Shown: one piece after another, positions 5,785 through 62,800 of the stretch
Numbering within the stretch: the stretch's first letter is position 1
How the letters are laid out: the number at the start of each line of letters is the position of its first letter
Source of the DNA: Fidelibacterota bacterium
GTDB lineage: Bacteria > Fidelibacterota > Marinisomatia > Marinisomatales > TCS55
Length of the DNA stretch: 64,000 nucleotides
NCBI GenBank assembly: GCA_018674655.1
Contig: JABGZQ010000066.1
Span: 62,001-126,000, forward strand
Direction: 5' to 3'
Made by a program: the position numbers and the translations under genes
Notes under the pieces: generated by a model
The model's database searches: none
Told to the model about the DNA's origin: nothing
What the model saw: only the letters and a program-made list of their open reading frames with translations

Positions 5785-5830
5785 ACTTCATTCTCCACCA
5801 ATATTAGGTGGATCATATATTGAATAATAG

Positions 5831-5867
5831 AAAAAGTCCGTCGGTAATATACCGGCGGACTTTTTCT
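5831..5867 (+). terminator. Intrinsic terminator after mdh
   Basis: AAAAAGTCCG (5831-5840) pairs with CGGACTTTTT (5856-5865). The stem continues through a T-G pair and CGGT/ACCG to a 5-nt loop. The A-rich 5' arm and T-rich 3' arm make it plausible in both directions. Confidence 0.92.
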
Positions 5868-5892
5868 ATCTTTTCTATATATTTTAATTTTA

Positions 5893-5920
5893 TGACAACC
5901 TTATTGATAAGGCCGTGTCA
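5893..5920 (+). promoter_or_regulatory. Interrupted palindrome ahead of the sigma factor gene
   Basis: TGACA-A-CCTTAT-TG-ATAAGG-CCG-TGTCA forms a nested inverted repeat that ends 24 nt before the sigma factor's TTG start. TGACAAC resembles the AAC-containing -35 element of many ECF promoters, and CGTGTC could be part of a -10. It could therefore be an autoregulated promoter, an operator, or an mRNA hairpin. The symmetry is directly visible; the role is a guess. Confidence 0.4.
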
Positions 5921-5944
5921 TACATCGTGTGAACAAACTAAATC

Positions 5945-6499
5945 TTGAAAAACGAAATCAGACAATTAATTCAATTAGCCCAAGCTGGAGATTCGGAAGC
6001 ATTTCACCAACTTGTGGCTTTACACGATGAAAAAATAATGACATTGGCTTTTCAACTTACTCAAAATAAAACAGATGCAGAGGACCTATATCAAGAGGTC
6101 TTTATCAAGGCATATAAAAGTTTATCAAAATTTCGCTTTCAAAGTGCATTTTATACATGGTTATATAGAATTACGGTGAATACCTTTTATAATTTGAAAC
6201 GGTCACAAAATAAAATGCTTATTCAAGAGACATTAGAAGATGGGCCAGATCCTCTTTTAAATATTTCTGAAGAGCCAAAATCGCCTTATGCCCAAAATGA
6301 AATTATGATTGCAGTAAAAACAGCTGCGGAAAAACTTCCAGACAAACAACGAACGGCATTTTTACTCAAGCATATACAAAACTTAAAAATCCGTGAAATT
6401 TCCGTAATTATGGGTATCGGTGAAGGTACCGTAAAAAAATATCTATTCCGGGCCATAGAAAAACTTAGAATTGAACTGAAAGATTACCGTTATGAATGA
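5945..6499 (+). CDS. ECF-type RNA polymerase sigma factor
   Basis: A group 4 sigma factor that would direct RNA polymerase to a small regulon. The 184 residues hold region 2 (DAEDLYQEVFIKAYKSL, then FYTWLYRITVNTFYN) and region 4 (KLPDKQRTAFLLKH, then IREISVIMGIGEGTVKK). The only start that keeps region 2 intact is a TTG at 5945, because an in-frame TGA lies at 5930 and no usable ATG follows until inside region 2. Weak initiation fits a low-level regulator. It overlaps the next gene by 8 nt, and the operon downstream is probably its main target. Confidence 0.93.
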   Translation: MKNEIRQLIQLAQAGDSEAFHQLVALHDEKIMTLAFQLTQNKTDAEDLYQEVFIKAYKSLSKFRFQSAFYTWLYRITVNTFYNLKRSQNKMLIQETLEDGPDPLLNISEEPKSPYAQNEIMIAVKTAAEKLPDKQRTAFLLKHIQNLKIREISVIMGIGEGTVKKYLFRAIEKLRIELKDYRYE

Positions 6500-7463
6500 T
6501 ATTTCCAATAAATTGAAAGAAAAGGCATCGCTTTATGTCCTGGATGCCATGGATATCAAAACACGGCAATCATTCAAAACTTTAATTGATCATGATGACC
6601 ATTTAAAACAATACGTTTTGGAATTAAAGAACACTTTGGCACTTACATTAGATTCTTTTGAATACAAACCATCAGAAGAAGAATTACAAGGTCAACGAAA
6701 TTTGTTAAGGGCGCGGACGCTTCAATTAGACAATAGTCAATCTAATGACCCTTTGTTTGAAAAAATTAGTCATGCTTTTGACTCAGTTCTTTCACCCCGC
6801 CAACCTGTTTGGGCGGTGGTAACATATGTGGTGATTGCTTTTATTGCGGGACGATTTTTATCTATTCCTCCTCAACAAGGCGACTCTACAAATCAAAATT
6901 TTTCTTCTACCGGAATTTTAAATCTCATCCAAGAAGACGCATTCTCTAATATTCAGTTTGAAAAATCAGACAATGATAATATCCGTCTGGCATTGGAAAC
7001 AAAACAGAATGTAGACATAGCTGGTGGAACTAATGATGAGATTATTCAGCAAATATTGTATTATTTATTACTCAACGATGCGAATCCAGGGAAAAGACTC
7101 CAAGCTGTGAGACTCATAGAAGCTGTTCCAGCGCAAGATAGTAAAAAACTCGTGCTCATTTCATCTGTATTATCTGAAACCAATACAGGTATACGACTAA
7201 GAGCTCTTGATTTATTATCCCAATTTGAAACGGACAAAACGATTCGGGATGCCTGCTTAAAGATTTTACTGGAAGACCAAAATGAAGCCGTTCGAATGGG
7301 GGCCCTATCTATCTTGGCCAATAGTCCATCAGCAGATATCGTTCCTGCTCTCCGGGTCGTGAGTCTTATGGATCAAAATGAATATATTCGTGAACGGGCA
7401 GTAGAAGTAATGACCGATATAAGTTACTTAGCCGAAGACCAAGCATTAGAGGTAATTCAATGA
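6492..7463 (+). CDS. Membrane-anchored anti-sigma-like HEAT-repeat protein
   Basis: Probable partner and inhibitor of the sigma factor encoded just upstream. The N terminus (ASLYVLDAMDIKTRQSFKTL) resembles anti-sigma domains of the RskA/ChrR kind but lacks zinc-binding His/Cys ligands. One membrane segment (VWAVVTYVVIAFIAG) lies near residues 105-125. The C-terminal part, from about residue 185, is made of HEAT-like helical pairs (RLQAVRLIEAV, IRLRALDLLSQF, VRMGALSILANS, IRERAVEVMTDI). With a cytoplasmic N terminus the HEAT part would be periplasmic, where it could sense the envelope proteins encoded next. The anti-sigma role is inferred from position and weak similarity. Confidence 0.72.
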   Translation: MNDISNKLKEKASLYVLDAMDIKTRQSFKTLIDHDDHLKQYVLELKNTLALTLDSFEYKPSEEELQGQRNLLRARTLQLDNSQSNDPLFEKISHAFDSVLSPRQPVWAVVTYVVIAFIAGRFLSIPPQQGDSTNQNFSSTGILNLIQEDAFSNIQFEKSDNDNIRLALETKQNVDIAGGTNDEIIQQILYYLLLNDANPGKRLQAVRLIEAVPAQDSKKLVLISSVLSETNTGIRLRALDLLSQFETDKTIRDACLKILLEDQNEAVRMGALSILANSPSADIVPALRVVSLMDQNEYIRERAVEVMTDISYLAEDQALEVIQ

Positions 7464-8707
7464 AATATCTTATTCCATTAATGTTCATCGTCTCAGCTCA
7501 TACTCAAAACTTGTATGAGTCATTCGAAACGTTTGATAAAGATTCAAAAAATTGGTATGTAGCCAAAACGACATACGAATTTGATGTGCGTAAAGCAGAA
7601 GTAAATAACCGAGTGGTAGAATTCAGAAATGTCATCGGTGACATTTCTGTTGAAGGAAAACCAACAACGACTGTTACGATTATTGAAAAAATAAAAATAC
7701 GATCAAAAATCAAGTCATCTGCAGAAGAAATATTTCAATCCAGCAAGGCTGAGGTGTCCAAATCCGGGATGGGACATATCCAATTTAAGGGTAACAAAAA
7801 GTCCCGTTCCCATAAGGTTCACTATGATTATGATGTCATCGTCCCAAATCATTATAACCTGAGAATGTATACTTCTGGCGGTGATGTAGAAGTGTTATAT
7901 CTTACTGGAGAAGCTTATCTCAAAACTAGCGGCGGTGACGTGGATGTGACTGCCTTAACCGGTCGTCTCACCGCCAAGACTTCCGGTGGTGATTTAACTC
8001 TGAAAAAAGTGAAAGGCGTGGCCAATATCCGTACATCAGGCGGTGATATTGAACTTACTGATTGTGTAGGCAAATTGGAGGGGACTACATCTGGTGGCGA
8101 TATAGATGTTTCTTTCTGTCAGGCCGAAGTGGATATGCATACCAGTGGGGGAAATATTGACTTTAGAGAAATTACAGGCAAAAATATTTACGGTAGGACT
8201 TCCGGAGGGGACATCGAAGTTGAAGATATTAAAGGTGATTTAGAAGTTTATACATCTGGTGGGAATATAGAAGTGGAAAACCTATACGGCCATTTAGAAG
8301 GTGAAACATCTGGAGGTCATATAGATCTTGTTCGAATTCAAGGGAATGTTGATGTGAAAACCAGCGGCGGAACCATCAAGGGGGATCGCATTCATGGAAA
8401 AATATATGCCCGAACCAGCGGTGGATCCGTTAATATTGAAAAGATCTGGGATCAGTCGTTGAAGAATCATGACATTAATTTGAGAACCAGCGATGGTAGT
8501 ATTGGATTAATCCTACCAGATAATTTTCCTGCTTCTTTTGATGCATTCGTTGAAAATCGTCGATCTACCAGCGTCATTGATTCTGAATTTCCATTACAAA
8601 TCCGTCTTGATGATGGTGATGTGATTGGTTCTGGTGATATAAACGGGGGAACGTTTATTGTGAAATTAAAATCGAGCCGCGGCTCAATCACTATAGAAAA
8701 AGATTAA
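7460..8707 (+). CDS. DUF4097-type exported beta-solenoid protein with TSGGD repeats
   Basis: A 415-residue exported protein with a short signal peptide (MKYLIPLMFIVSAHTQ). After an N-terminal beta-rich region come eleven TSGG units and one TSDG unit at an almost exact 18-residue period (residues 138 to about 350), for example TSGGDVDV and TSGGDIEV. This is the DUF4097 (putative adhesin) type of beta-solenoid. There is no C-terminal sorting signal that I recognise. It overlaps the anti-sigma gene by 4 nt (ATGA) and is followed 4 nt later by the barrel gene, so it is co-transcribed. Biochemical function is unknown; a surface or periplasmic structural role is likely. Confidence 0.82.
   Translation: MKYLIPLMFIVSAHTQNLYESFETFDKDSKNWYVAKTTYEFDVRKAEVNNRVVEFRNVIGDISVEGKPTTTVTIIEKIKIRSKIKSSAEEIFQSSKAEVSKSGMGHIQFKGNKKSRSHKVHYDYDVIVPNHYNLRMYTSGGDVEVLYLTGEAYLKTSGGDVDVTALTGRLTAKTSGGDLTLKKVKGVANIRTSGGDIELTDCVGKLEGTTSGGDIDVSFCQAEVDMHTSGGNIDFREITGKNIYGRTSGGDIEVEDIKGDLEVYTSGGNIEVENLYGHLEGETSGGHIDLVRIQGNVDVKTSGGTIKGDRIHGKIYARTSGGSVNIEKIWDQSLKNHDINLRTSDGSIGLILPDNFPASFDAFVENRRSTSVIDSEFPLQIRLDDGDVIGSGDINGGTFIVKLKSSRGSITIEKD
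7871..8485 (+). repeat. Array of 18-residue (54-bp) TSGG coding repeats
   Basis: Eleven successive units inside the DUF4097 gene. Nine of the first ten are exactly 18 residues and one is 19; the eleventh is stretched to 24 residues before a final TSDG. Only the TSGG[D/N/H/T/S] core and alternating hydrophobics are conserved, so the DNA copies have diverged. This indicates an old structural repeat rather than a recent tandem expansion. Confidence 0.88.
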
Positions 8708-8711
8708 GGCC

Positions 8712-10268
8712 ATGAAAATATTATTATCATTTATTATTCTGAATATGGGAATTGCCCAGGACACAACTGAGGTAAAAATCGTTGTTGATCCAGCCATTTC
8801 TCCAGAATCCACCCAAGATGAGAAAAAAGAAAACTTAGCCACAGATGAATTCACATTCCGTGAGGATGTAACCATTGCCTCTAGTGAGGTATCTGAAACC
8901 AATATGCGTATCATCGGTGGAGATTTGACTGTTTTTGGTACCGTGAATGGCAAGATAACCTTATTTGGTGGTGATGCTACCCTAAAAAATGGCAGTGTGC
9001 TGAATGGCGAAATCATTACCATCGGCGGGAACGTTTACCGTGAACCCAAAAGTATGGTAAATGGAAAAATTATCGAGAATAATCTGTCGGAAGGATTGAT
9101 TTACCGAGAAACGGACAAGGAAGATGCCATTCAGGGAACAACTGAATTTGGTTTGGATCAAAAATCAGAACGATCCCGCCAAAGTTGGATACATCCCGAA
9201 CGCCCGGTCGTTCAGTATAATAGAAATGAAGGCCTCTTGCTTATGCCTTTTAATGAACGATGGGATCGTCATTCAAAATCAAATTTTAGACTCAATTGGT
9301 CAGCAGGGGTTCGCTGGAGAAAAGGACTTGCTCCCGATTATGTCGGACGTGCTACTTTTGAAAAAAACTTTTTTGAGAATCAAAATTTGGTCCTTTATAC
9401 GAGTTTATTTAAAGAAGCGCGAACCGATGATGGATACAGACTACCCCAAAAAGAAAATGGATTGGCCAGTTTTTTAGCCCGGCAAGATTTTTATGATCGT
9501 TGGGAAGAACAAGGATGGGAAGCCGGTATTGGGTTAAACCTTTTTAATAATATTAGAATCAAGGGTCGGGTTGTATCTGCTGAGCAGGATACACTCCCAA
9601 TTTCGAGTATGTATAGTCTTTTCGAAAAACAGCGGGCCTTAAGACCAAATCCTGTTTTGGACCCAACATCTATTAACTATTCGGAAATTTCAATAATGGG
9701 TCGATCCACCCATTATTCTCCGTTGAGCACGGGGTTAGCCGTGTTTTTACAATCTGAATACATTCAAGCATCCGGCGATTCTACCACCGTATTTAAAATG
9801 GACTATGGGAAAGCAATCCGGCGTAATCTTGCATTAATTGTATTCAATTGGGAATTTTCTGAAGGTCTTGTATTTCGTTCCAGACTCATGATGGGCTCTG
9901 CTGGAGAAACGCTACCTATCCATCGATTGTTTACTGTGGGTGGCCTTGGCTCTGTGGCAGCACAGCCCTATAAATATCAACAAGGGAATCAAATGGCACA
10001 GTTAAATCTGGCATTGTTATTAACCCCCGCGTTTACCGATGGCGATTGGCTAATTTCATTTTTTGTTGACGGTGGGCGGGCTTGGGATGGAAATACATTT
10101 GAAACAGACTGGGTTTCCGAAAACTCAAAGTTAGGTATTTCATCTGCAGGCATCGGTATTGGTCATGGTGATTTTGATGATGATTTTGATTCAATGATTA
10201 ATATAGCCAAACCCATAGACCACGATGGCCCTTACGAAATCACCTTTCGTATTAACTACTCTTTTTAA
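8712..10268 (+). CDS. Bactofilin-like N domain fused to an outer-membrane beta-barrel
   Basis: A 518-residue exported protein with signal peptide MKILLSFIILNMGIAQ. Residues about 70-120 carry a bactofilin/polymer-forming-like beta-helix (MRIIGGDLTVFGTVNGKI, then LFGGDATLKNGSVLNGEI). The C-terminal 350 residues look like an outer-membrane barrel related to the surface-antigen (D15/Omp85) group: FTVGGLGSVAAQPYKYQQGN resembles its GG-L-RGY element, and the chain ends in a terminal Phe (FRINYSF). The combination suggests a short solenoid tethered to an outer-membrane pore. It is third in the sigma-controlled operon after the anti-sigma gene. Function unknown. Confidence 0.72.
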   Translation: MKILLSFIILNMGIAQDTTEVKIVVDPAISPESTQDEKKENLATDEFTFREDVTIASSEVSETNMRIIGGDLTVFGTVNGKITLFGGDATLKNGSVLNGEIITIGGNVYREPKSMVNGKIIENNLSEGLIYRETDKEDAIQGTTEFGLDQKSERSRQSWIHPERPVVQYNRNEGLLLMPFNERWDRHSKSNFRLNWSAGVRWRKGLAPDYVGRATFEKNFFENQNLVLYTSLFKEARTDDGYRLPQKENGLASFLARQDFYDRWEEQGWEAGIGLNLFNNIRIKGRVVSAEQDTLPISSMYSLFEKQRALRPNPVLDPTSINYSEISIMGRSTHYSPLSTGLAVFLQSEYIQASGDSTTVFKMDYGKAIRRNLALIVFNWEFSEGLVFRSRLMMGSAGETLPIHRLFTVGGLGSVAAQPYKYQQGNQMAQLNLALLLTPAFTDGDWLISFFVDGGRAWDGNTFETDWVSENSKLGISSAGIGIGHGDFDDDFDSMINIAKPIDHDGPYEITFRINYSF

Positions 10269-10269
10269 C

Positions 10270-11184
10270 ATGAAAAAGACACAATATATTATAGTAATCT
10301 TTCTCCTATCGTTTGGCATGGGCCAAGGTCCATCCGCTTCCCTATTTCAACAAGATAAAGGGCGTGACGACAAAGGAAAGTGGATCCAGGATCATTATAA
10401 ATATACAGTGGGTAATATTGACCAATTAGAAGTGGATATTGAATATGGTATGGGGGAATTCAATCTAGATGCAAACATGAAACCAAAATTAATCAGCGGA
10501 AATATCTTTTATTACCCTCTCTGGTTTGCACCTGAGATTGAATATGAAGAAAGGTCTAATCGAGGGATTCTTTCAATCCGGACAGATCAAGAGGACAATT
10601 TTGTTATGAGTGACTATAAAATATTTAAAAATGGCTTCAATAAATTTGAAGATAATTCTCTTGATTTTTCCCTTCCATCAATGGTGCCAATTGAATTGGA
10701 TTTGGATATCGGTATGGGTGAATCAAATATTGATTTTACCGACTTAATATTATCTCGCATCCAAATAGAAGGTGGAATGGGTGAAATGAATGTGGAAATG
10801 CATAAACCCAATCCTATGGTATGTGATTTTCTAAAGATTGATACAGGCTTAGGATCATTTGAAGCGGAAGGATTGGGGAATATTAACGCTCGGGAAGTGG
10901 ATATAGAAGTGGGCATGGGCTCTGCAGATATCGATTATCGGGGACATTTTAACCATGATGTTGAAATTAATATTGAAGTGGGTATGGGATCGATTGAGCT
11001 GATACTACCAGAAAATGTGAATGTGAAGGCAAAAGTTCACCACAATTTTTTATCCAGTATTGATATGGATGATTTAATCAAAAAAGGGAATTATTATTTA
11101 ACCGATGATTGGGTATCAGATCGGCCAACAGTTTACCTCGATATCAGTGTTGGATTGGGATCTGTCGATATTAATCTACGATAA
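10270..11184 (+). CDS. Toast-rack/DUF4097-like exported protein
   Basis: A 304-residue exported protein beginning MKKTQYIIVIFLLSFGMGQG. The ATG at 10270, one base after the previous stop codon, is chosen over an in-frame upstream ATG at 10225 because it starts a proper signal peptide. The body has short beta repeats marked by GMGE/GMGS/GLGS (VDIEYGMGEFNLD, LDIGMGESNIDF, IEVGMGSADIDY, ISVGLGSVDINL). This resembles the toast-rack domain found in LiaF-type cell-envelope stress proteins. It ends the sigma operon and overlaps the convergent Rieske gene by 14 nt. Family placement is tentative; the repeat structure is clear. Confidence 0.68.
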   Translation: MKKTQYIIVIFLLSFGMGQGPSASLFQQDKGRDDKGKWIQDHYKYTVGNIDQLEVDIEYGMGEFNLDANMKPKLISGNIFYYPLWFAPEIEYEERSNRGILSIRTDQEDNFVMSDYKIFKNGFNKFEDNSLDFSLPSMVPIELDLDIGMGESNIDFTDLILSRIQIEGGMGEMNVEMHKPNPMVCDFLKIDTGLGSFEAEGLGNINAREVDIEVGMGSADIDYRGHFNHDVEINIEVGMGSIELILPENVNVKAKVHHNFLSSIDMDDLIKKGNYYLTDDWVSDRPTVYLDISVGLGSVDINLR

Positions 11185-37342: not shown

Positions 37343-38596
37343 TTATTCGAATCTCAGAGATTCGATAGGATCCAAATTCGCAGCGCGATAAGCAGGGTAA
37401 ATCCCAAAACCGATACCGATAAAAGAACAGACCGCCATACCGTAAAAGGCCCAATCCATGGGGATCACGGCGGGGACTTTAAGGAGGAGGGCAATGAGGT
37501 TCCCCCCGGCAATCCCTAGAATAACACCCACAATGCCACCGAACTGGCTTAAGAAAATGGCCTCCATGAGAAACTGGGTGAGAATATCTCGTTTTGTAGC
37601 GCCAATGGCCTTTCGGACGCCGATCTCCTTGATCCGATCCGTGACGGAAACGAGCATAATATTCATAATGCCGATCCCGGCCACAAGTAACGCAATAACG
37701 CTTACGGCACCGGCAAACAATTTGATTCCACCAGTAAAACCGGCAAATGTGTCCATGAGTTCTTCGTTGGAAATAATTTCAAAATCATTCTCTTCTTTGG
37801 GTGGCACCTTGCGAATAACACGCATCAGACCAATCACTTCATCCATGGTTTTTTCATACAATTCAGTCGATTCTGCTTCAACATTGATACCTAAGGATGT
37901 CCATCGATTAGAAAACCGTTGGATATAAACTGAAATCGGAATCATTACAAAATAATCCTGGCTCTGACCGAAAGCTTGTCCTTTTCTTTCCGTAATACCA
38001 ATGACTGTATAATCCAGTCCTTTAATTTGAATGACCTTCCCAATGGGATCTTCAAAGGGAAACAGGATATCAGCCAAATCTGGCCCAAGGATGGTAACGC
38101 TGCGATAAAAACGAATATCATCTTCCATAAAATTTCGTCCATCTGCCAGATATGTTTTGAATGAACGCAAGCCCCACTCATCCACACCGGACAATTCTGC
38201 TGTTTTCTTTAATCGTTTATCTTTATACTGAATATTTCTTTCACCGGTCCCATCTACTACACTGACCTGCCGTGGTAATTTTGCACGTTGCTTTAGTTCT
38301 TCATAATGGGTATATAGAATGTTTTTCCGTTTCCGGATTTTATTATTTCCTGGACCATGAATTTGTATAGCAGGTGCTTTTTGAACCATAAAAGTATTGG
38401 TACCAAAAATATCGAGTTGTGAATTCACAGAAGATTCCAAGGTTCGAATGGCAGTCATAACACCAATTACGGAGAATACACCAATACTGATACCGAGTAA
38501 AGTCAGAATCGATCGAAGTTTGTTTTGACGAATGGATTCGATGGCCATTCGAAAACTTTCTTTAATCGTATTTTTTAAATGTGATTGCTTGGCCAT
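37343..38596 (-). CDS. MacB-type ABC transporter permease (second copy)
   Basis: Membrane subunit of a MacB/FtsX-type transporter. About 417 residues: an N-terminal membrane helix (LRSILTLLGISIGVFSVIGV), a large periplasmic MacB_PCD-like domain, and a C-terminal FtsX domain with three helices ([39 protein letters not shown]). It ends DPIESLRFE, as is usual for the family. The ATG at 38596 overlaps the stop of the upstream paralogue (TGATG). It is the last gene of the export operon. Confidence 0.93.
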   Translation of the reverse strand: MAKQSHLKNTIKESFRMAIESIRQNKLRSILTLLGISIGVFSVIGVMTAIRTLESSVNSQLDIFGTNTFMVQKAPAIQIHGPGNNKIRKRKNILYTHYEELKQRAKLPRQVSVVDGTGERNIQYKDKRLKKTAELSGVDEWGLRSFKTYLADGRNFMEDDIRFYRSVTILGPDLADILFPFEDPIGKVIQIKGLDYTVIGITERKGQAFGQSQDYFVMIPISVYIQRFSNRWTSLGINVEAESTELYEKTMDEVIGLMRVIRKVPPKEENDFEIISNEELMDTFAGFTGGIKLFAGAVSVIALLVAGIGIMNIMLVSVTDRIKEIGVRKAIGATKRDILTQFLMEAIFLSQFGGIVGVILGIAGGNLIALLLKVPAVIPMDWAFYGMAVCSFIGIGFGIYPAYRAANLDPIESLRFE

Positions 38597-39813
38597 CACT
38601 CGTATCGCAGTGCATCAATGGGATCTAATCGAGCAGCTTGATAAGAAGGAATCAATCCGGATACGATACCAATTACAACGCTGAGAATAATGGATCCAAT
38701 GGCCAATCCCACTGGCATTGATGAGGGGAAAAACTGGTTAATAAGGAGACTCAATCCCCCGGCCAATCCCATCCCAACCAATCCGGCAATAAGACAAATT
38801 AAAACCGCCTCCATGAGGAATTGTCCTAAAATCATAGACTGTGTTGCGCCCAATGCTTTCCGGACACCAATTTCTTTCGTTCGTTCCTTCACCGATACAA
38901 ACATAATATTCATGATGCCGATTCCACCTACAATCAAAGATAGTGCCGTAATAAATAAACCTGTGCCACCGATTGCCAATTTAATTGCTTTATATTGTGC
39001 TTCCATGGTGGCCGATTGATTGATGGCAAAATCATCTTTTTCCATGGGTTTTAGCCCACGTATTTGTCGCATAACGCCATAGATTTCTTCTTTTGCTTCA
39101 TCATAATTATCCGTATTCACCTTGACTCTCACATTCATCCATCCTCGACGAGAAAATAAGCGCTGAAAGGTGCCAAATGGTAAGACAGCTTGATTATCCA
39201 AACTGAACATTCCCATAAATTTCCCCTGCTTTTTAAGTACACCAACCACTCGAAATTTATGTGAACCAATTTTGACATATTTATCAATGGGGTCTTCATC
39301 TGTGAATAGGGCATCAGCCACATCCCCACCAATGATCATTACCCGAGCACCCGATCGATTTTCCCCGTCAGTAAAATATCGCCCTGTTATCACGTCTGCC
39401 GATTCGTTTGTAGCCATATATTCCGGCGTGGTTCCAAAAAATCGAGTATCAATTCGTTTGTCGCCTCGAAAAATACTCCCTCCCCGCTCTGCCATTGGCG
39501 CAACCGCCGCAACAAATTGAGATTTCTCCCGAAGTTGTTCCACATAATCTTCTTTAATTCGGGGACGATTTCTCAACTCCCACCAATCCATATCACCACC
39601 AAACCAATCCATTCGACTGATAATCAAGACATCCCGGCTAAGGAAAGACATACTTTTTTCAAAGGTACGATCTAATCCAGAAATAAGGGTGCCCATCAAC
39701 GTCACCGATAAAACACCAATTACAATACCAAGAGCGGTTAAAATTGAACGAGATTTATTCCCGAAGATTGAACCCAGAGAAATGCGCAAATTCTCCCAAA
39801 AAAGTGATATCAA
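38596..39813 (-). CDS. MacB-type ABC transporter permease (first copy)
   Basis: A 405-residue permease with the same layout as its downstream neighbour: an N-terminal helix ([20 protein letters not shown]), a periplasmic domain, and an FtsX domain ([39 protein letters not shown]), ending DPIDALRYE. The two copies are clearly paralogous but have diverged in the periplasmic part, so a heterodimer driven by the single ATPase is likely. It overlaps the ATPase gene by 4 nt. Confidence 0.93.
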
Positions 39814-40517
39814 GTGGATACCTGTCTTTTTTTAGTCACTTTTTTATCCACTTTTATTTTTCCATCAAATAGGTGAATCGTTCGATCCGCATGGTCGGCA
39901 ATATATTCTTCATGGGTGACCAATATAATTGTATTACCACCCGAATGGAGTTTGTCTAATATCTTCATAATTTCGACACCACTTTTAGAATCCAAGTTCC
40001 CAGTAGGTTCATCTGCTAAAATAATAGATGGATCATTCACCAAGGCCCGGGCAATGGCAACCCGTTGACGCTGTCCACCTGAAAGTTCATTGGGCTTGTG
40101 ATGCATCCGCTCTTCTAATCCTACGGAAATGAGCGCTATTTTGGCTTTTTCGATTCTGTCATTCTTAGTCATATTTGCATAAATTAATGGGACTTCTACA
40201 TTTCGAAGGGCAGTGGCTTTCGGGAGTAAATTAAACGTCTGGAACACAAATCCGATTTTTCGATTCCGAATAGATGCTAATTGATTATCATCCATTTTAT
40301 GGACGAGTTCACCTTCAAATTCGTAGATGCCTTCTGTGGGCGTATCCAAACAGCCGATCATATTCATTAATGTTGATTTTCCCGAGCCGGACGGTCCCAT
40401 AATAGAGATATATTCATTTGGATTGATAATAAGATCAACGCCATCCAATGCACGAACCACTTCACCGCCCACATCATAATGACGTTTAATCTCTTTTAAT
40501 GAAATTAGATCAGCCAT
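39810..40517 (-). CDS. ABC transporter ATPase of the MacB/LolD type
   Basis: A 235-residue cytoplasmic ATPase. Walker A is [12 protein letters not shown], the Q-loop [10 protein letters not shown], the signature [15 protein letters not shown], Walker [14 protein letters not shown], and the H-loop [14 protein letters not shown]. This is the LolD/MacB subgroup that works with FtsX-like permeases. In E. coli MacB the ATPase is fused to the permease; here it is a separate gene, overlapping the first permease by 4 nt. Confidence 0.95.
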
Positions 40518-40519
40518 AA

Positions 40520-41887
40520 TTATTGCTTTGAATCTGAATCTTCGGATTCACTTCTAGAACCACCAATTTGAATCTTAAATCCTTTTTTCTTATCTTTACC
40601 ATCTTTATCTGTGGTTACCGCCTTATTATGAGCCAAATCTTTACTGATTGCACGATAGCTACCAGTAACTATTTCTTCTCCTTCATCGATGCCACTGAGT
40701 ACTTCGTAATGGGTTTCAGAAGAAATCCCCACTTTAACAGGACGGATATGAACCACTTTTCCATCTTTGGATGCTTTTTTCTTTTTACCTTTTTTGTCAT
40801 CCAATTCAGATAATTTTCCATCTCGAAGGACGCCGCCAGGTTTATCGGAAACTATAAATACCAATTCTTCCATTTTCTTCGCTTTTGGTTTTTTGGTACC
40901 ATCTGAGCCTTTTCCTTTCCCAAAGGTCGTTTTTTCAGAGCCTTCTGGACGAACGGTCAAGCTCTGGATTGGTATGGCCAACACTTTATCTTTTTTATCC
41001 GTTATAATATTGGCGGTGGCACTCATACCGGGACGTATCCCGTCCGGCACTTGTATCATCCGAATTTTGACTTCAAAATTTGTCACTTGCTCTGCAGACC
41101 CAACTGAAGATGTTTGAGCCATATGGGCAATTTCACTTACAAGGCCATAAAATACCGTATCCTGAAACGCATCAATTTCAATTTCTGTAGTATCCCCTTG
41201 GGAGACAGAAACCACATCATTCTCATTCACATCTACAATGACTTCCATAAGATTTAAATCCGCTATTATCATGAGTACTTCAGCTTGAAACATGCCTCCC
41301 ACTGCCATTTCACCCACTTCTTTATTCACTGCGGTGACAATTCCATCCTGCGGTGAAACAATTCGCGCTTTGTTTAAATCATCTTCTCTCGATTCAAGAC
41401 TAGATTTTGCTTGCGCCAGAGCGCTATTTGCTATTTCATATGAGGCTTGAATCGCTTCTAACTCCTGATCAGAAGCCAGATTTTGTTCATACATTGATTC
41501 GACACGTTTCTTGCTGGCCAATTCTTGCTTTAACCGTGCTTTGGCCGATCGAACTGAAGAGGAAGCGGAATTATAATTGGATAATAATTGTTTTCGATCC
41601 AATGTAATCAAGTGCTGACCTTTTTTCACGTGATCCCCTTCTTCTACCGTAATGGTATCAATCCATGCTGATGAAGTGGCACTGATTTTTACTTCGGTTT
41701 CAGGTTGGATTTTCCCACTGGCATTCACTTTATGTATAATCGTTTGCCGCACCACTTTTTCCGTTTCCACTTTGATAGCATCATCATCTTTTTTTCCCAG
41801 ACTTACCGCAATCAGTATGGCGAGTAATACGCCGCCGCCGCCAAAAATGAGCCATTTTTTCTTTTTAGTTAATTTTTCCTTAGCCAC
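40520..41887 (-). CDS. Periplasmic adaptor protein (MacA/RND-type membrane fusion protein)
   Basis: A 455-residue adaptor linking the permeases to a TolC-like pore. It has an N-terminal membrane anchor ([20 protein letters not shown]), a lipoyl/barrel-sandwich domain ([20 protein letters not shown]), an alpha-hairpin (residues about 105-170) and a beta-barrel domain ([18 protein letters not shown]). The C-terminal part is interrupted by two Lys/Gly-rich inserts ([15 protein letters not shown], then [15 protein letters not shown]), unusual for a periplasmic protein. The C terminus is also charged. It lies 2 nt before the ATPase. Confidence 0.92.
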
Positions 41888-41903: not shown

Positions 41904-43217
41904 TTATTTATTCGTATCCAGTGTACCCAAAAGGGCTTTTAAATTTGCTTGTTCAATATAAGCGTCATATTTTGAACGAATCAGAGATGACCTCGCCCGT
42001 ACTACCGAAACCTGCGCATCCAACACTTCTAAAATAATTGTAGATCCTTGGGTATATCTCACCTGCGCCAGTTTTAAATCTTCCTCTGCAGAAATGAGAA
42101 CAGTTTCATTGATTGGGATAATTTCCTGGTAATTATTCAATTGATCAACCATACTTTGCAATTGGACGGATAGATCTTGTAGTTGGATCAAATATTCCGA
42201 TTCTTGTTTATCCACAGCAATCTTCGCCTGTTGAATTCGAGTGCTGATACTATTTCCTGAAAATATTGGAACAGAAATAGACACTCCCGTATTCATTCGT
42301 TTTTGATCATTAAAACTGTTAGTAATTGCATCGCCAAGATTTTTTGCACTGCCGGAATAACTGGCATTTGCACTAATGGTGGGCAAACGAGATCCTTTGG
42401 CAATTTTTGCACTAAGTTCTGCGCTTGTGATTTGATATTGTTTTGCTTTAACGCTTGGATTAAATTTTTGAATCAGTTCAAATCCAGTATCAAATTCAGG
42501 AACAATTTCCAAAGGTGTTTCCACTTCTACTGCAGAAAAATCTTGATCTGAGCCAACTAACCCCATGGTATTTTTCAATGTTCGATATGCGTTTTGTAGG
42601 TTTGCATCATTATTGATTACATCTACCCTGGCTTGACCAAAACGAACTTCTGCTTTTAGCAGATCCGTCTTTTTTGCTGAACCTAATTCATATTTTTGTT
42701 CTGCCAATGCCAACTGCTGTTGGGAACTCATGAGATTAGATCGAGCCACATCTAATAGCTGGGAAGCTTTAAGGTAATTAAAATAAGCTGAATGTACATT
42801 TCGAATTATATTGGTAATTACTTGACGGTCAAATTGTTCTGCAATTCGATAACTGTTTTTTGCTTGCCGAATTGTATTCCACCACACACCACCATCATAA
42901 ATATTCTGCGAAAGTGAAATGCTGGAAGATGCACTAGTTTGACTACTGATTTTATCCAATGTTAACTCTCCAGTTTCAGAATTAAATCCTCCAGTCTGTG
43001 CGGGAAACCGAGATTCGCTCATATTTCCAGAAAACCGAATTGAGGGCAAAATCCTACTGTAAGAGCCTTTAACACCTTGTCTGGATGATTGTAAATCCAA
43101 TGCCGATGTTTTCAACGCTTCCTTGTTCTCTAAAGCAATTTCAATCGCTTCCACCAGAGAATAGGTTTGACTAATCCCAATGGTAAAAGGGATCATAAAT
43201 AATAATCGTTTAATAAT
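41904..43217 (-). CDS. TolC-family outer-membrane efflux protein, probable ATT start
   Basis: Outer-membrane trimeric channel of the export system. The two OEP repeats are visible ([40 protein letters not shown]-like and [20 protein letters not shown] segments). The first ATG (43196) would leave a truncated signal, [11 protein letters not shown]. Extending upstream in frame gives IIKRLLF before it, a normal signal peptide, and an AAAGGA Shine-Dalgarno (43230-43225) lies 7 nt ahead of an ATT at 43217. I therefore prefer an ATT start (43217 or 43214); the ATG remains the conservative alternative, giving 430 residues. Confidence 0.9.
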
Positions 43218-43231: not shown

Positions 43232-43945
43232 TTATCCAAACATGCCTGAAACACCTGCGCTAATTCCCGCAAATACGATCAAACCAAATATCCATAAACC
43301 TGTCATAACGGTTAATGATGTTTTGGTCGTTTTATTATAAATAATACCAATTCCCACAGCCATGAGGAATACACGCCAGAAAGCAAATATATCCAACCCT
43401 GCAAGAAAACTGTTAATAAAATCTCCCTGTTCACCAATTCCCAAGGCACCCAATCCCGTAAAAATCATCATATTGTCAGAAATATACTGAATAGGTGTTT
43501 TGATGATATATTCAATAACCGATGGCATATAAGCAAATGCACTTAATGTAAATATTTGACCATATTTTCCGCCACCCCCTAAAAATAAATTAGCAGTCAG
43601 CATGGCAAACAGAGACCAAAAGGCGATCCGCATGGGCCAAGAGATTGCCATACTTACATAAGTAAAAATGGCACTCATACCTGTTTCTGAATAAACCCTA
43701 TCGTATTGGTTTGAAAGTATTTCATCTTTTTGCTCTTCAGAAATCTGCGTATTCCCTTCGATGCTTTTTTCAATTTGTTCCCACTGCATATCCGCAATTA
43801 AATCCTGAAGCACAAACCCGGAAACCAACGCCAAACCCATGAGTAAGGCAATGGGCATTAAGGCTTGTTTCAAGTTAAATTCTTTAACGATGGTTTCGAA
43901 TGTTTCACCGGGTGCGGTGATAGCATTAATCATTGTTCCAAACAT
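43232..43945 (-). CDS. YIP1-family multi-pass membrane protein
   Basis: A 237-residue integral membrane protein with about five hydrophobic segments (ALMPIALLMGLALVSGFVL, MRIAFWSLFAMLTANLFL, VMTGLWIFGLIVFAG and others). The N terminus NAITAPGETFETI and the layout match the YIP1 domain. GGGGKYGQIFTLSAFAYMP is a family-like stretch. A strong Shine-Dalgarno (AGGAGAATAG) precedes the ATG. It is the first gene of the export operon, with 75 nt of promoter region upstream, so it may assist assembly of the transporter. Confidence 0.82.
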   Translation of the reverse strand: MFGTMINAITAPGETFETIVKEFNLKQALMPIALLMGLALVSGFVLQDLIADMQWEQIEKSIEGNTQISEEQKDEILSNQYDRVYSETGMSAIFTYVSMAISWPMRIAFWSLFAMLTANLFLGGGGKYGQIFTLSAFAYMPSVIEYIIKTPIQYISDNMMIFTGLGALGIGEQGDFINSFLAGLDIFAFWRVFLMAVGIGIIYNKTTKTSLTVMTGLWIFGLIVFAGISAGVSGMFG

Positions 43946-44021
43946 TCTATTCTCCTACCTCTATTATGATAAAATATCTAAGACCTGCCACGTTTTAGAC
44001 TCAAAAATGTTCCTTTGGTTG

Positions 44022-44246
44022 TCAATCATTTTCATTTTTTTCATCTGCTTCATATTCCAAGATATCCCCCGGTTGACAACCCAATTCTTTGCATATTTTT
44101 TCTAATGTTGAAAACCGTACTGCTTTGGCTTTTTCCGTTTTCAAAATGGACAAATTTGCCTGGGTGATACCGATCTGTTCTGCAAGATCTCCCAGGGAAA
44201 TTTTCCGCCGGGCCATCATTACGTCTAAATTGATGCGGATGCCCAT
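44022..44246 (-). CDS. Small XRE/Cro-type transcriptional regulator
   Basis: A 74-residue HTH protein (MARRKISLGDLAEQIGITQA, then LEKICKELGCQPGDILEYEA), similar to the compact YozG/Cro-C1 type regulators. It starts on the last base of the DUF2975 gene (TAATG overlap). XRE regulators of this type commonly accompany a DUF2975 membrane protein, which may modulate their activity. Confidence 0.9.
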   Translation of the reverse strand: MGIRINLDVMMARRKISLGDLAEQIGITQANLSILKTEKAKAVRFSTLEKICKELGCQPGDILEYEADEKNEND

Positions 44247-59835: not shown

Positions 59836-62800
59836 ATGAACAAACCTATTAAATCTAGATTGGCTACAATCTTCTTCCTATTGATTGGAATGTCCACATT
59901 CCTTATTGCGCAGGAAGGGTCAGTATCTGGTCGCGTCACTGACGATGACACTGGGGATCCTTTGGTGGGAGCCAACGTCATTGTTGTGGGCACCAACCTT
60001 GGTGCTGCCACGGATGTAAATGGTGAATATTCTATCAGTCGGGTACCTGCAGGTGCTCAGAGACTAAATGCCAACTACATTGGTTACGCAAGTAAATCAA
60101 TGAATGCAGATATTCCAACTAATGGTAATGCTATTGGAGACTTTAATCTGACTGTTGCAGCATTGAACCTAAATGAAGTTGTTGTAACTGGTGCTGGAAT
60201 AGCTGTTGAAAAATCTAAAATTGGTAACTCTATTGGTGTAGTGGATATGTCCGCACTAGAAGATGCTCCAATTACTAATTTTTCAGATGTTCTACAAGGT
60301 CGTGAGAAAGGTGTGGTAATGTTACCAAATGGTGGTTTGAATGGCGAAGGTGCTTCAATCCGTATTCGTGGTACATCAACCCTATCACAATCTAATGAAC
60401 CTGTTATTTATCTTGATGGCGTTCGTTTGGATAATACAATGGGTGCTTCATTTGGTGGTGGAACTCCATCGCGTTTAGATGAAATAAACCCTGATGCAAT
60501 TGACAGAGTTGAAATTCTTAAAGGTGCGGCGGCGGCATCACTTTATGGAACTCAAGCTGCAAATGGTATTATTCAAATTTTTACTAAGCAGGGCGCAATT
60601 TCTAAACCACAATTCACTGCAGAAGTGAGTACTTCTACTAGTAGTTTTCCTGAAGATCGCTTCAAACCAAATTCTGGTTTTGCCCGGGATCAGGAAACTG
60701 CAACTCGCATGGCTGGATTATTTCCTGACTATGCAAAGTCCGGCTTAAAACCATATGAAGTCATAGAAGTTCCTTTTACCAGTTGGTTATATGACAAAGG
60801 TAAAAACAAAAGTGTTTCTACTTCTGTTAGAGGTGGTGCTCCTGGTGCTACTTATTTTGCAAGTTTACGTTATTTAGCAACTGATGGTCCATTTGATGAG
60901 AAGGCTACATTACTAGGACTTCCAGTTGGGGCAGCTGACCCAACTAAACCTGGTGCAAATGATAAGCGTGATCAGTTTATGATGAGTGCTACTCTTAATA
61001 TTATTCCAACAGATAGAATGAGAATTCGTTTGTCAACAAATTATTCTCAAACAGATCATAATACGATTCAGAATAATAACAATATATATGGCACAACATC
61101 TCTTATTATGATGGGTAAACCCGAACATTCAACGGCATCAAATGCTTCTGGCTCTATTGCTTTTGCGACAGCACGTGAAACAACATATCGCTCATTGGCG
61201 AATGAGGGTGAGAATAGCACTATTTCTTTGCAGACTAGCTACAGAGTAACTGATGGCTTAAATGTTTCAGGTACTTTTGGGTTGAATACAACTCTTAATA
61301 AGTATACTAGTCTAACTCCTTTTGGATACAACGTTGATGGCAAGGTTGCTTCAAACGTTCAAGGTGCTCTTTGGAAAGGAAGTAATAACAAAAAAGTCTA
61401 TTCAATGGATGTCAAAGCTGACTATGCAATGAATATAGGCTCTGCCATTAGCTTAGAGAATGTGGCTGGATTCCAAGCGTTTCAAACTATTCATAAGAAT
61501 TTAGAAGGTGGTGGTTCACAGTTCCCAGGTCCAGGTCTTCAAGTCCTTGGTGCCTTAGGCGCTCCTGGAAACCCTTATTCAAGTTATTCTGAAGTTATTG
61601 AAGCCGGATTTTTAGCACAAAGTAGAATTGGCTTTGAAGACTACTTATATACAACGGTTGGTATTCGTCAGGATGCGAATAGTGCATTTGGTTCTGAATT
61701 CAGCACCATCACTTATCCTCGCGTAAATGTATCTTACATACCTACTACTCATATTGGACAGCTTGGTCCTGTTTCTACTGCACGTTTACGTTTTGCATGG
61801 GGTAAAGCAGGTCAGCAACCTGGCGCATTTGACCAGTTCACAACTTATCTGCCATGGGCATCTGAGTTTGGTCCTGGCTTAGCACCTGGTAATGTAGGTG
61901 ACCCATCCTTATCTCCTGAGATTTCTACTGAAGTTGAAATGGGTGGTGAAGTTGGACTTTTTAAAGATAAGATAGCATTTGATTTCCAGTATTGGGATCG
62001 TACAGTTAATGATGCTTTAATCCAACGTGCTTATCCAGCTTCTGGCGGTTTTTACCGTACTCAGTTATCTAATATTGGGGAACTTGCTGCAAATGGTTGG
62101 GAAGTGGGCGTTGATGCTAATCTTCTACGTAACTCAAAGGTTTCAGTAGATGTATTTGGAAGCTTATCTTATTTAGAAGAAAAAGTTGTTAGTCTCGGTG
62201 GTGCACCTGAGCAAAAAGTAGGTGGATCTTATCCTCGCTACAGGAACTTCTTAACTGAAGGTTTTGCTCCAGGTCAATACTTTGGCGCTAAACTAAATCG
62301 CGATGTGAAATATCCAATTGATATTAATGGTGATGGCGCGGCAGATAGTGATAGTGATTTACTTGCTTTCTTTACTACTGGCGGTGCTGGTGTAAGAAGT
62401 GGCTGGAATCCTGTAATGGCAACACCAACACAAGCTGATGTTGATGCTGGTCGCGCTAAAGGAACCGGTGCTTTAGACTGGAACCTTGGTAAACCAACTC
62501 CAGACTATACGAGTTCTTTTGGTATTAAAGTTAACTATGGTAAGAACTGGAGTGTAAATACTCTATTCGAGTCACGTTTTGGTGATTACAAGGTTACTAA
62601 CCTAACTGATGCTTTTCGTAAGTCTCACAGTTTGATTGGTAGAAATACACCTGAGGCTGCTGATAACGAGTCTAGGTTAATCAATCCAGCCAATGCTGGA
62701 CAAGGACGCTTAGATGCTGCCAATGAATGGGTTCGTAAACACTTAGCACTATCACCTTATAGTGGCTTAAATACAATGGAAGATGCTTCCTTTGTTAGAC

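Follow-up and report, generated by a model that had tools for sequence, protein, structure and literature searches.

What does a run of five closely packed genes do when it joins a sigma factor of the extracytoplasmic function (ECF) type to a membrane protein with HEAT repeats and to three envelope proteins, and by what is it switched on? The locus lies in a 64,000-nucleotide stretch of DNA (the window; positions 62,001 to 126,000 of contig JABGZQ010000066.1, assembly GCA_018674655.1) from a Marinimicrobia bacterium. The Marinimicrobia (Neomarinimicrobiota), now phylum Fidelibacterota, are found widely in the ocean, most of them uncultured; the host genome is a 2.1 Mb draft (G000), and other genomes and loci are coded Gnnn and Lnnn. 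The system is likely to represent an ECF sigma/anti-sigma response to envelope stress, autoregulated and native to this phylum, a five-gene switch that probably senses envelope trouble and turns on its own exported proteins together with an efflux operon. What is new here is an ECF-type promoter before the sigma gene, recurring throughout the phylum, with extra copies enriched in genomes that carry the sigma factor.

The five open reading frames (ORFs) were verified and are co-oriented at window positions 5945-11184. The operon and its control region are arranged as follows:

5827-5869, + strand: strong intrinsic-terminator-like hairpin 3' of mdh, with a 20-pair stem and a T-rich tail
5893-5922, + strand: ECF-type promoter, TGACAAC-N16-TGTCATA, kept upstream of sigma phylum-wide
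5945-6499, + strand: ECF sigma factor of 184 aa with a TTG start (Sigma70_r2, Sigma70_r4_2, TIGR02937)
6492-7463, + strand: anti-sigma-like protein with one transmembrane (TM) segment and HEAT repeats at residues 183-320 (HEAT_2, AlphaFold2 (AF2) model, hydropathy)
7460-8707, + strand: exported DUF4097 (Toastrack) beta-solenoid protein (DUF4097, LiaG-family model)
8712-10268, + strand: exported protein predicted to join a bactofilin-like solenoid (residues ~46-124) to an Omp85-superfamily barrel (~167-518) (AF2, fold matches, Pfam on relatives)
10270-11184, + strand: exported toast-rack/LiaF-C-like protein (Toast_rack_N, LiaF-like_C)

The hairpin sets the operon apart from mdh, and the junctions between successive genes measure -8, -4, +4 and +1 nt, with ATG 10270 taken for the last gene because of the signal-peptide-like start there. 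Signal-peptide-like N-termini were recognized by eye in three genes, those of the DUF4097, barrel and toast-rack proteins. Much of what a first-pass annotation, made from the letters of the window, had proposed is borne out by these data: the tight packing (-8 to +4 nt), the Pfam names of the sigma, HEAT, DUF4097 and toast-rack proteins, and the operon, the sigma/anti-sigma pair and the envelope location of the products. The start that it had given, 5893, does not begin a gene (an ATG at 5892 runs into a stop after 18 codons) and coincides exactly with the promoter's first base. Its statement that no enzyme is present holds for the five genes, but not for the inferred regulon described below, which contains enzymes. 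Pfam and NCBIfam revealed no LiaI-LiaF-TM, PspC, PspA or two-component control in the five operon proteins.

The first gene encodes an ECF sigma factor by its architecture, since it holds regions 2 and 4 in about 180 aa and the other sigma regions are absent; Sigma70_r2 (4e-17) and Sigma70_r4_2 (5e-16) were matched over their Pfam cut-offs, and the NCBIfam sigma70-ECF model TIGR02937 was also above its cut-off. The second protein matches HEAT_2 (2.6e-10, Pfam) and shows one clear hydrophobic stretch at residues ~107-125 in hydropathy analysis. Its AF2 model (30 sequences; predicted local distance difference test (pLDDT) score 73.6) has helices at 6-16, 22-34, 36-56 and 62-79, then the TM segment, three strands at 153-179 and eight HEAT helices. 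In the available part of a published description, the class I anti-sigma domain is laid out as helices H1-H3 plus H4, a layout that the first four helices of the model fit (PMC7406223). Among 24 relatives, the antisigma model NF052375 was matched by 16 at E <= 0.01 (best 1e-8) and RskA_N by one. Fold comparison of the whole model gave only generic HEAT, armadillo and alphaRep folds and was uninformative on the N-terminal domain. The sigma/anti-sigma pair is supported at the sequence level, and the Marinimicrobia second protein can be regarded as a putative class I anti-sigma factor whose N-terminal helices would hold sigma.

The linkage of these genes extends across the phylum. DUF4097 relatives occur in 32/61 genomes of the same genus, family and order, and most of these loci keep the order sigma, anti-sigma, DUF4097, barrel, toast-rack, usually directly 3' of rng-rplU-rpmA-mdh. 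The anti-sigma profile has matches in 105/245 genomes of the phylum, and 40 further matches were read. Two of them, L242 (4727-5811) and L243 (4349-5529), were left out of the counts; they hold a different, weakly related ECF/anti-sigma pair in reduced-genome relatives, with no cargo and no HEAT match. The remaining 38 loci were picked by the anti-sigma gene alone, to span families and not at random. Sigma adjoins anti-sigma in 37 of them, the exception (L240) being a broken anti-sigma frame, and at least one cargo gene is present in 37, the exception (L232) stopping at a contig edge. All five genes are found in 13 loci; sigma, anti-sigma, DUF4097 and toast-rack, without the barrel, in 9; sigma, anti-sigma, DUF4097 and barrel in 8; sigma, anti-sigma and DUF4097 in 3; sigma, anti-sigma and toast-rack in 3; sigma and anti-sigma only in 1; and one has no sigma. 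Some of the loci end at contig edges, so these cargo counts are lower bounds; the cargo is modular. An 8-nt overlap of sigma and anti-sigma recurs in many loci, and the gene order kept across the phylum rules out a chance arrangement. The expectation that the genes stay together in relatives was thereby confirmed. A contig scan with two barrel peptide patterns gave 40 loci, the titles of which all read Marinimicrobia/Neomarinimicrobiota or 'FCB group bacterium'.

The sequence TGACAAC(C/T)-N15/16-TGTCATA is conserved upstream of sigma, and TGACAAC-N15/16-TGTC is what we take to be the AAC/GTC type of ECF promoters. In a survey of 62 loci, the two unrelated pairs among them, 39 carry the strict form against 0.005 expected from mononucleotide shuffles, and 53 the relaxed form GACAAC-N15..18-RTC against 0.2 expected; of the nine loci without it, several have a near-variant or a miscalled start. 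A genome-wide search with the strict pattern, using the reversed pattern as control, covered 42 genomes. The 24 genomes with sigma hold 76 sites (control 32) and the 18 without it 10 (control 21). From these 86 sites, 20 are operon promoters and 1 is a relict in G006; when they are subtracted, site and control counts are 56/32 with sigma and 9/21 without (Fisher p 0.0014). Per-genome site counts also differ between the groups (Mann-Whitney p 1e-5) and control counts are alike (p 0.74), p values that are optimistic for the site enrichment because the genomes are related. The promoter was kept in 0/5 sigma-less DUF4097 or barrel loci checked. Sigma-less members of the genus retain other sigma-70 family genes, an argument for dependence of the sites on this particular sigma. 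Given the strong conservation and the covariation with sigma presence, we infer that this sigma reads these promoters, and the TGACAAC-N15/16-TGTC sites would then form its autoregulated envelope-stress regulon.

The downstream gene was read at 41 of the other 65 sites (1 in the window and 40 elsewhere), with Pfam run on representatives; 3 have no nearby ORF and 38 do. These 38 comprise DUF5916/CBM9-type genes (13), Yip1 operons (9), M1 peptidases (3), PspC (2), GIN (DUF2807) genes (2), WD40-like plus Omp85 genes (2) and seven singles, namely DUF4097, an HlyD-like protein, a CAAX-type protease, an M20 peptidase and three without clear identity. The downstream genes share coherent envelope functions, which speaks for the stress-response reading. 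The first-pass annotation had suggested looking for the same motif elsewhere in the genome, and the extra copies, including one at 43995-44024 of the window, answer to that; its view that the output consists only of solenoids and barrels proved too narrow, as genes for efflux, peptidases and PspC stand behind the promoter as well. Some individual sites deserve mention. In the host genome itself a third strict promoter (contig C83, L090:1200-4153) precedes the gene of a 961-aa M1 peptidase, and an M1 peptidase is also found behind the promoter in G009 and G037. In G021 and G032 (L110, L112) it precedes a protein of ~960-980 aa with a WD40-like beta-propeller and an Omp85-like part, so WD40-Omp85 may be a second Omp85 type in the regulon. 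An HlyD/MacA-like gene stands behind the promoter in G058 (contig C185, L128), a placement that hints at efflux as a recurrent output beyond the Yip1 operon. Of the sites given by a relaxed scan of the genus, ten more were read: six have no nearby ORF, one is a known DUF5916 site, two precede other ORFs, and one, in G007, precedes a gene that is M1-peptidase-like by resemblance.

The second promoter copy of the window stands before an efflux operon on the opposite strand:

43995-44024, - strand: second ECF-type promoter copy, TGACAAC-N16-AGTCTAA, upstream of the efflux operon
43232-43945, - strand: Yip1-domain membrane protein, first gene (Yip1 6.3e-13)
41904-43196, - strand: TolC-like outer-membrane efflux protein (OEP 6e-70)
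40520-41887, - strand: MacA/HlyD-like membrane fusion protein (HlyD_D23 7.6e-18)
39810-40517, - strand: ABC ATPase of a MacB-type transporter (ABC_tran 1.2e-32)
38596-39813, - strand: MacB-like permease (MacB_PCD 1.3e-39, FtsX 1.4e-21)
37343-38599, - strand: second MacB-like permease (MacB_PCD 6e-33, FtsX 5.9e-22)

A scan of the window with <=2 mismatches gives 2 sites against 1.14 expected, so that the window alone is no proof of a second promoter, and it is conservation that provides it. Among 23 genomes with a Yip1 match, 14 with sigma and 9 without, the strict site was found upstream in 8/14 of the former, including all six sigma-bearing members of the genus, and in 1/9 of the latter, namely G011, which keeps the barrel and a DUF4097 stub. 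Sigma-less G003 and G008 show only decayed look-alikes of the site at Yip1.

Ten genomes without sigma (G002, G003, G004, G008, G015, G016, G019, G022, G023 and G028) show a clean absence of the block, their mdh directly adjoining the genes that lie 3' of the operon in the window, namely a small gene and a 220-aa-type gene (Rieske-like and DJ-1-like by eye). Cargo persists without sigma and anti-sigma in several genomes, and in G014 the barrel alone follows mdh. Two further genomes show junctions of their own. In G006 (L035:8780-9141) a deletion of ~3 kb has joined ~33 codons of sigma, in frame, to the C-terminus of DUF4097, with promoter and barrel intact and sigma, anti-sigma and toast-rack gone, although an assembly artefact is possible. 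In G011, another species of the genus, a different junction (L037:7900-8400) has removed sigma, anti-sigma and most of DUF4097 and kept the barrel; there are ambiguous bases near this junction.

As for the cargo itself, the DUF4097 protein matches DUF4097 over its Pfam cut-off (1.1e-15) and an NCBIfam LiaG-family model below its cut-off (3.8e-17), and the toast-rack protein matches Toast_rack_N over the cut-off (2.6e-8) and LiaF-like_C slightly short of it (3e-6), both in Pfam. By family resemblance, the most likely role of these exported solenoids is that of a shield or scaffold for the envelope, as proposed for LiaG/LiaF/LiaX-type proteins.

The protein encoded between them had been called a bactofilin-like/barrel fusion. 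The window protein has a single Pfam match, to Omp85 (1.9e-4, under cut-off), and none to Bactofilin, but its relatives lend support to both halves of the name: among 27 of them (Pfam, E <= 0.1) Bactofilin was matched by 11 (best 1.5e-4) and Omp85 by 10 (best 2.5e-8), and the barrel is specifically Omp85-like. The AF2 model (37 sequences, pLDDT 76.6) shows short-strand rungs at 46-124, spaced ~18 residues apart, and then a barrel of ~16 strands. Its closest folds are BamA, Sam50 and TamA, with a Foldseek value of 8e-11 to BamA and VIA Z 17-20 at a root-mean-square deviation of 3.7-5 over 270-320 aligned residues for the three; a sequence search for solved relatives gave nothing convincing (best E 0.035). 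An FxDxG-type motif, presumably that of the Omp85 inner wall, occurs in 32/37 sequences, and the C-terminal residue is Phe in 37/37. The [VI]RG[FYW] motif, which we take to be that of the Omp85 L6 loop, was found in 0/37, so the barrel is classed as Omp85-like by fold and not as a standard member. Pfam on the 27 relatives gave no POTRA family, and in the model the rungs 46-124 occupy that place. The barrel protein is thus predicted to belong to the Omp85 superfamily by fold, being neither BamA nor TamA, with a bactofilin-like solenoid standing in place of POTRA domains.

These elements can be assembled into a working scheme. In the resting state, sigma would be kept at the inner membrane by the helical N-terminus (four helices) of the second protein; an envelope cue acting on the periplasmic HEAT domain would release it, and free sigma would read the TGACAAC-N15/16-TGTC promoters. 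It would amplify its own operon, the source of two exported toast-rack solenoids and of a bactofilin-Omp85 barrel for the outer membrane, and in this genus it would also switch on the Yip1-TolC-MacA-MacB efflux operon, whereas in various relatives the candidate targets are DUF5916, M1 peptidase, PspC, GIN-domain and WD40-Omp85 genes. Several points weigh against this scheme. The operon is dispensable, being missing from ten genomes; the reversed control implies that a good part of the single sites in sigma-bearing genomes may be chance; and the distance from site to ORF is 200-310 nt at two PspC, one M20 and one Yip1 gene. The strict Yip1 site is absent in 6/14 genomes with sigma, all outside the genus, so regulon membership shifts. 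The anti-sigma protein of the window reaches E 0.0016 and 18.5 bits with NF052375, where the cut-off is 100, and its N-terminus matches solved structures weakly (RslA complex chain E 0.11, RskA 1.4).

The weak anti-sigma scores, and a fold search that matched the HEAT part alone, could also mean that the second protein is a HEAT membrane scaffold co-transcribed by chance, with sigma controlled otherwise. This is very improbable, given the strict adjacency to sigma, the recurrent 8-nt overlap, the four N-terminal helices resembling those of class I anti-sigma domains and the NF052375 and RskA_N matches among relatives. Another possibility is that the purpose of the circuit lies in outer-membrane biogenesis and not in a stress response, the bactofilin-Omp85 protein inserting or exporting particular outer-membrane proteins and sigma setting its supply. 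The BamA/Sam50/TamA fold matches and the FxDxG-type motif fit this, as do the barrel kept alone beside mdh in G014 and the presence, downstream of the promoter, of genes for two kinds of outer-membrane protein, DUF5916 and WD40-Omp85. Nevertheless, the L6 motif and POTRA domains are lacking, the barrel is missing from 12/38 loci with sigma, anti-sigma and DUF4097 and from 3 with toast-rack only, and the efflux, PspC and peptidase genes suit a stress response better, which makes the proposal quite unlikely.

A further alternative, raised by the first-pass annotation, is a self-sensing loop, in which the HEAT domain binds the exported solenoids or barrel of its own operon, and their depletion, or failed outer-membrane assembly, causes the anti-sigma factor to let go so that more are made. 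A DUF4097 or toast-rack gene does stand beside the sigma/anti-sigma pair in 37/38 loci, with the exception at a contig edge, and, once species divergence (via mdh and rng) was removed, the correlation between the anti-sigma and DUF4097 distance matrices was 0.80, the strongest among ten pairs. But DUF4097 and barrel correlate at 0.799 and sigma and DUF4097 at 0.77, and matrix entries are not independent, so the distance test does not single out contact. Neither solenoid is constant (3 loci have toast-rack only, and 11 have DUF4097 without toast-rack), and the cargo that survives in several genomes without sigma and anti-sigma works without this sensor. We consider such a loop unlikely. In a related, speculative idea the HEAT domain would gauge export or assembly of the operon's solenoid and bactofilin-Omp85 products in the periplasm. 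The system would then act as a feedback checkpoint for an envelope lattice whose anchor is an Omp85 barrel of a new class, with a bactofilin solenoid where POTRA domains would be; we would give this a similarly low, marginally better chance.

The readable promoter of this probable phylum-wide ECF envelope-stress circuit makes it possible to mine genomes and metatranscriptomes for the regulon without a culture. The circuit ties ECF control to the biology of Toastrack and PspC proteins, and a barrel of Omp85 type that carries a bactofilin-like solenoid would bear on how Omp85 proteins function without POTRA domains. The kinds of components are known, and no description of the combination was found in the open-licence literature searched, where no paper brought together Omp85 and bactofilin, DUF4097 and HEAT repeat, or Marinimicrobia and either anti-sigma or envelope stress.

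Some similarities can be seen between this operon and the RpoE/RseA- and SigW/RsiW-type systems: an ECF sigma factor, a co-encoded anti-sigma factor with one TM segment and a four-helix cytoplasmic domain, here predicted, and, as proposed here, a self-activating AAC/GTC-type promoter and an envelope regulon. Unlike them, it has a periplasmic part made of HEAT repeats, exported solenoids and a bactofilin-Omp85 barrel within the operon, and no RseB- or protease-like gene in it. With LiaFSR/LiaG/LiaX and the phage shock protein (PSP) systems it shares DUF4097 and LiaF-C/toast-rack domains, as well as PspC and GIN-domain genes behind the promoter in some relatives, but it is under ECF control and not that of a two-component system or PspF. 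In the available portions of two PSP surveys, DUF4097, DUF2154 and DUF2807 are unified as Toastrack, mention is made of a gene context in which Toastrack goes with a linked sigma factor and a DUF2089-like protein, and an ECF/HEAT/bactofilin operon was not found (PMC11237479, PMC9239133). One of them, in the part available, argues for intracellular Toastracks (PMC11237479), whereas those described here have signal-peptide-like starts and appear to be exported. In the case of the Omp85 superfamily (BamA, TamA, WD40-Omp85, noNterm-Omp85), the predicted ~16-strand barrel and, in most sequences, the FxDxG-type motif are shared, but here a bactofilin-like solenoid replaces POTRA and the L6 RG[FYW] motif is absent. 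The portion of an Omp85 survey at hand lists WD40, patatin, metallo, lipo and noNterm types besides the POTRA ones, with no bactofilin type found among them (PMC4104836). The likeness to bactofilins lies in the repeating short-strand solenoid and in the weak Pfam matches of 11/27 relatives. Canonical bactofilins are cytoplasmic polymers, whereas the protein described here is apparently exported and fused to an outer-membrane barrel.

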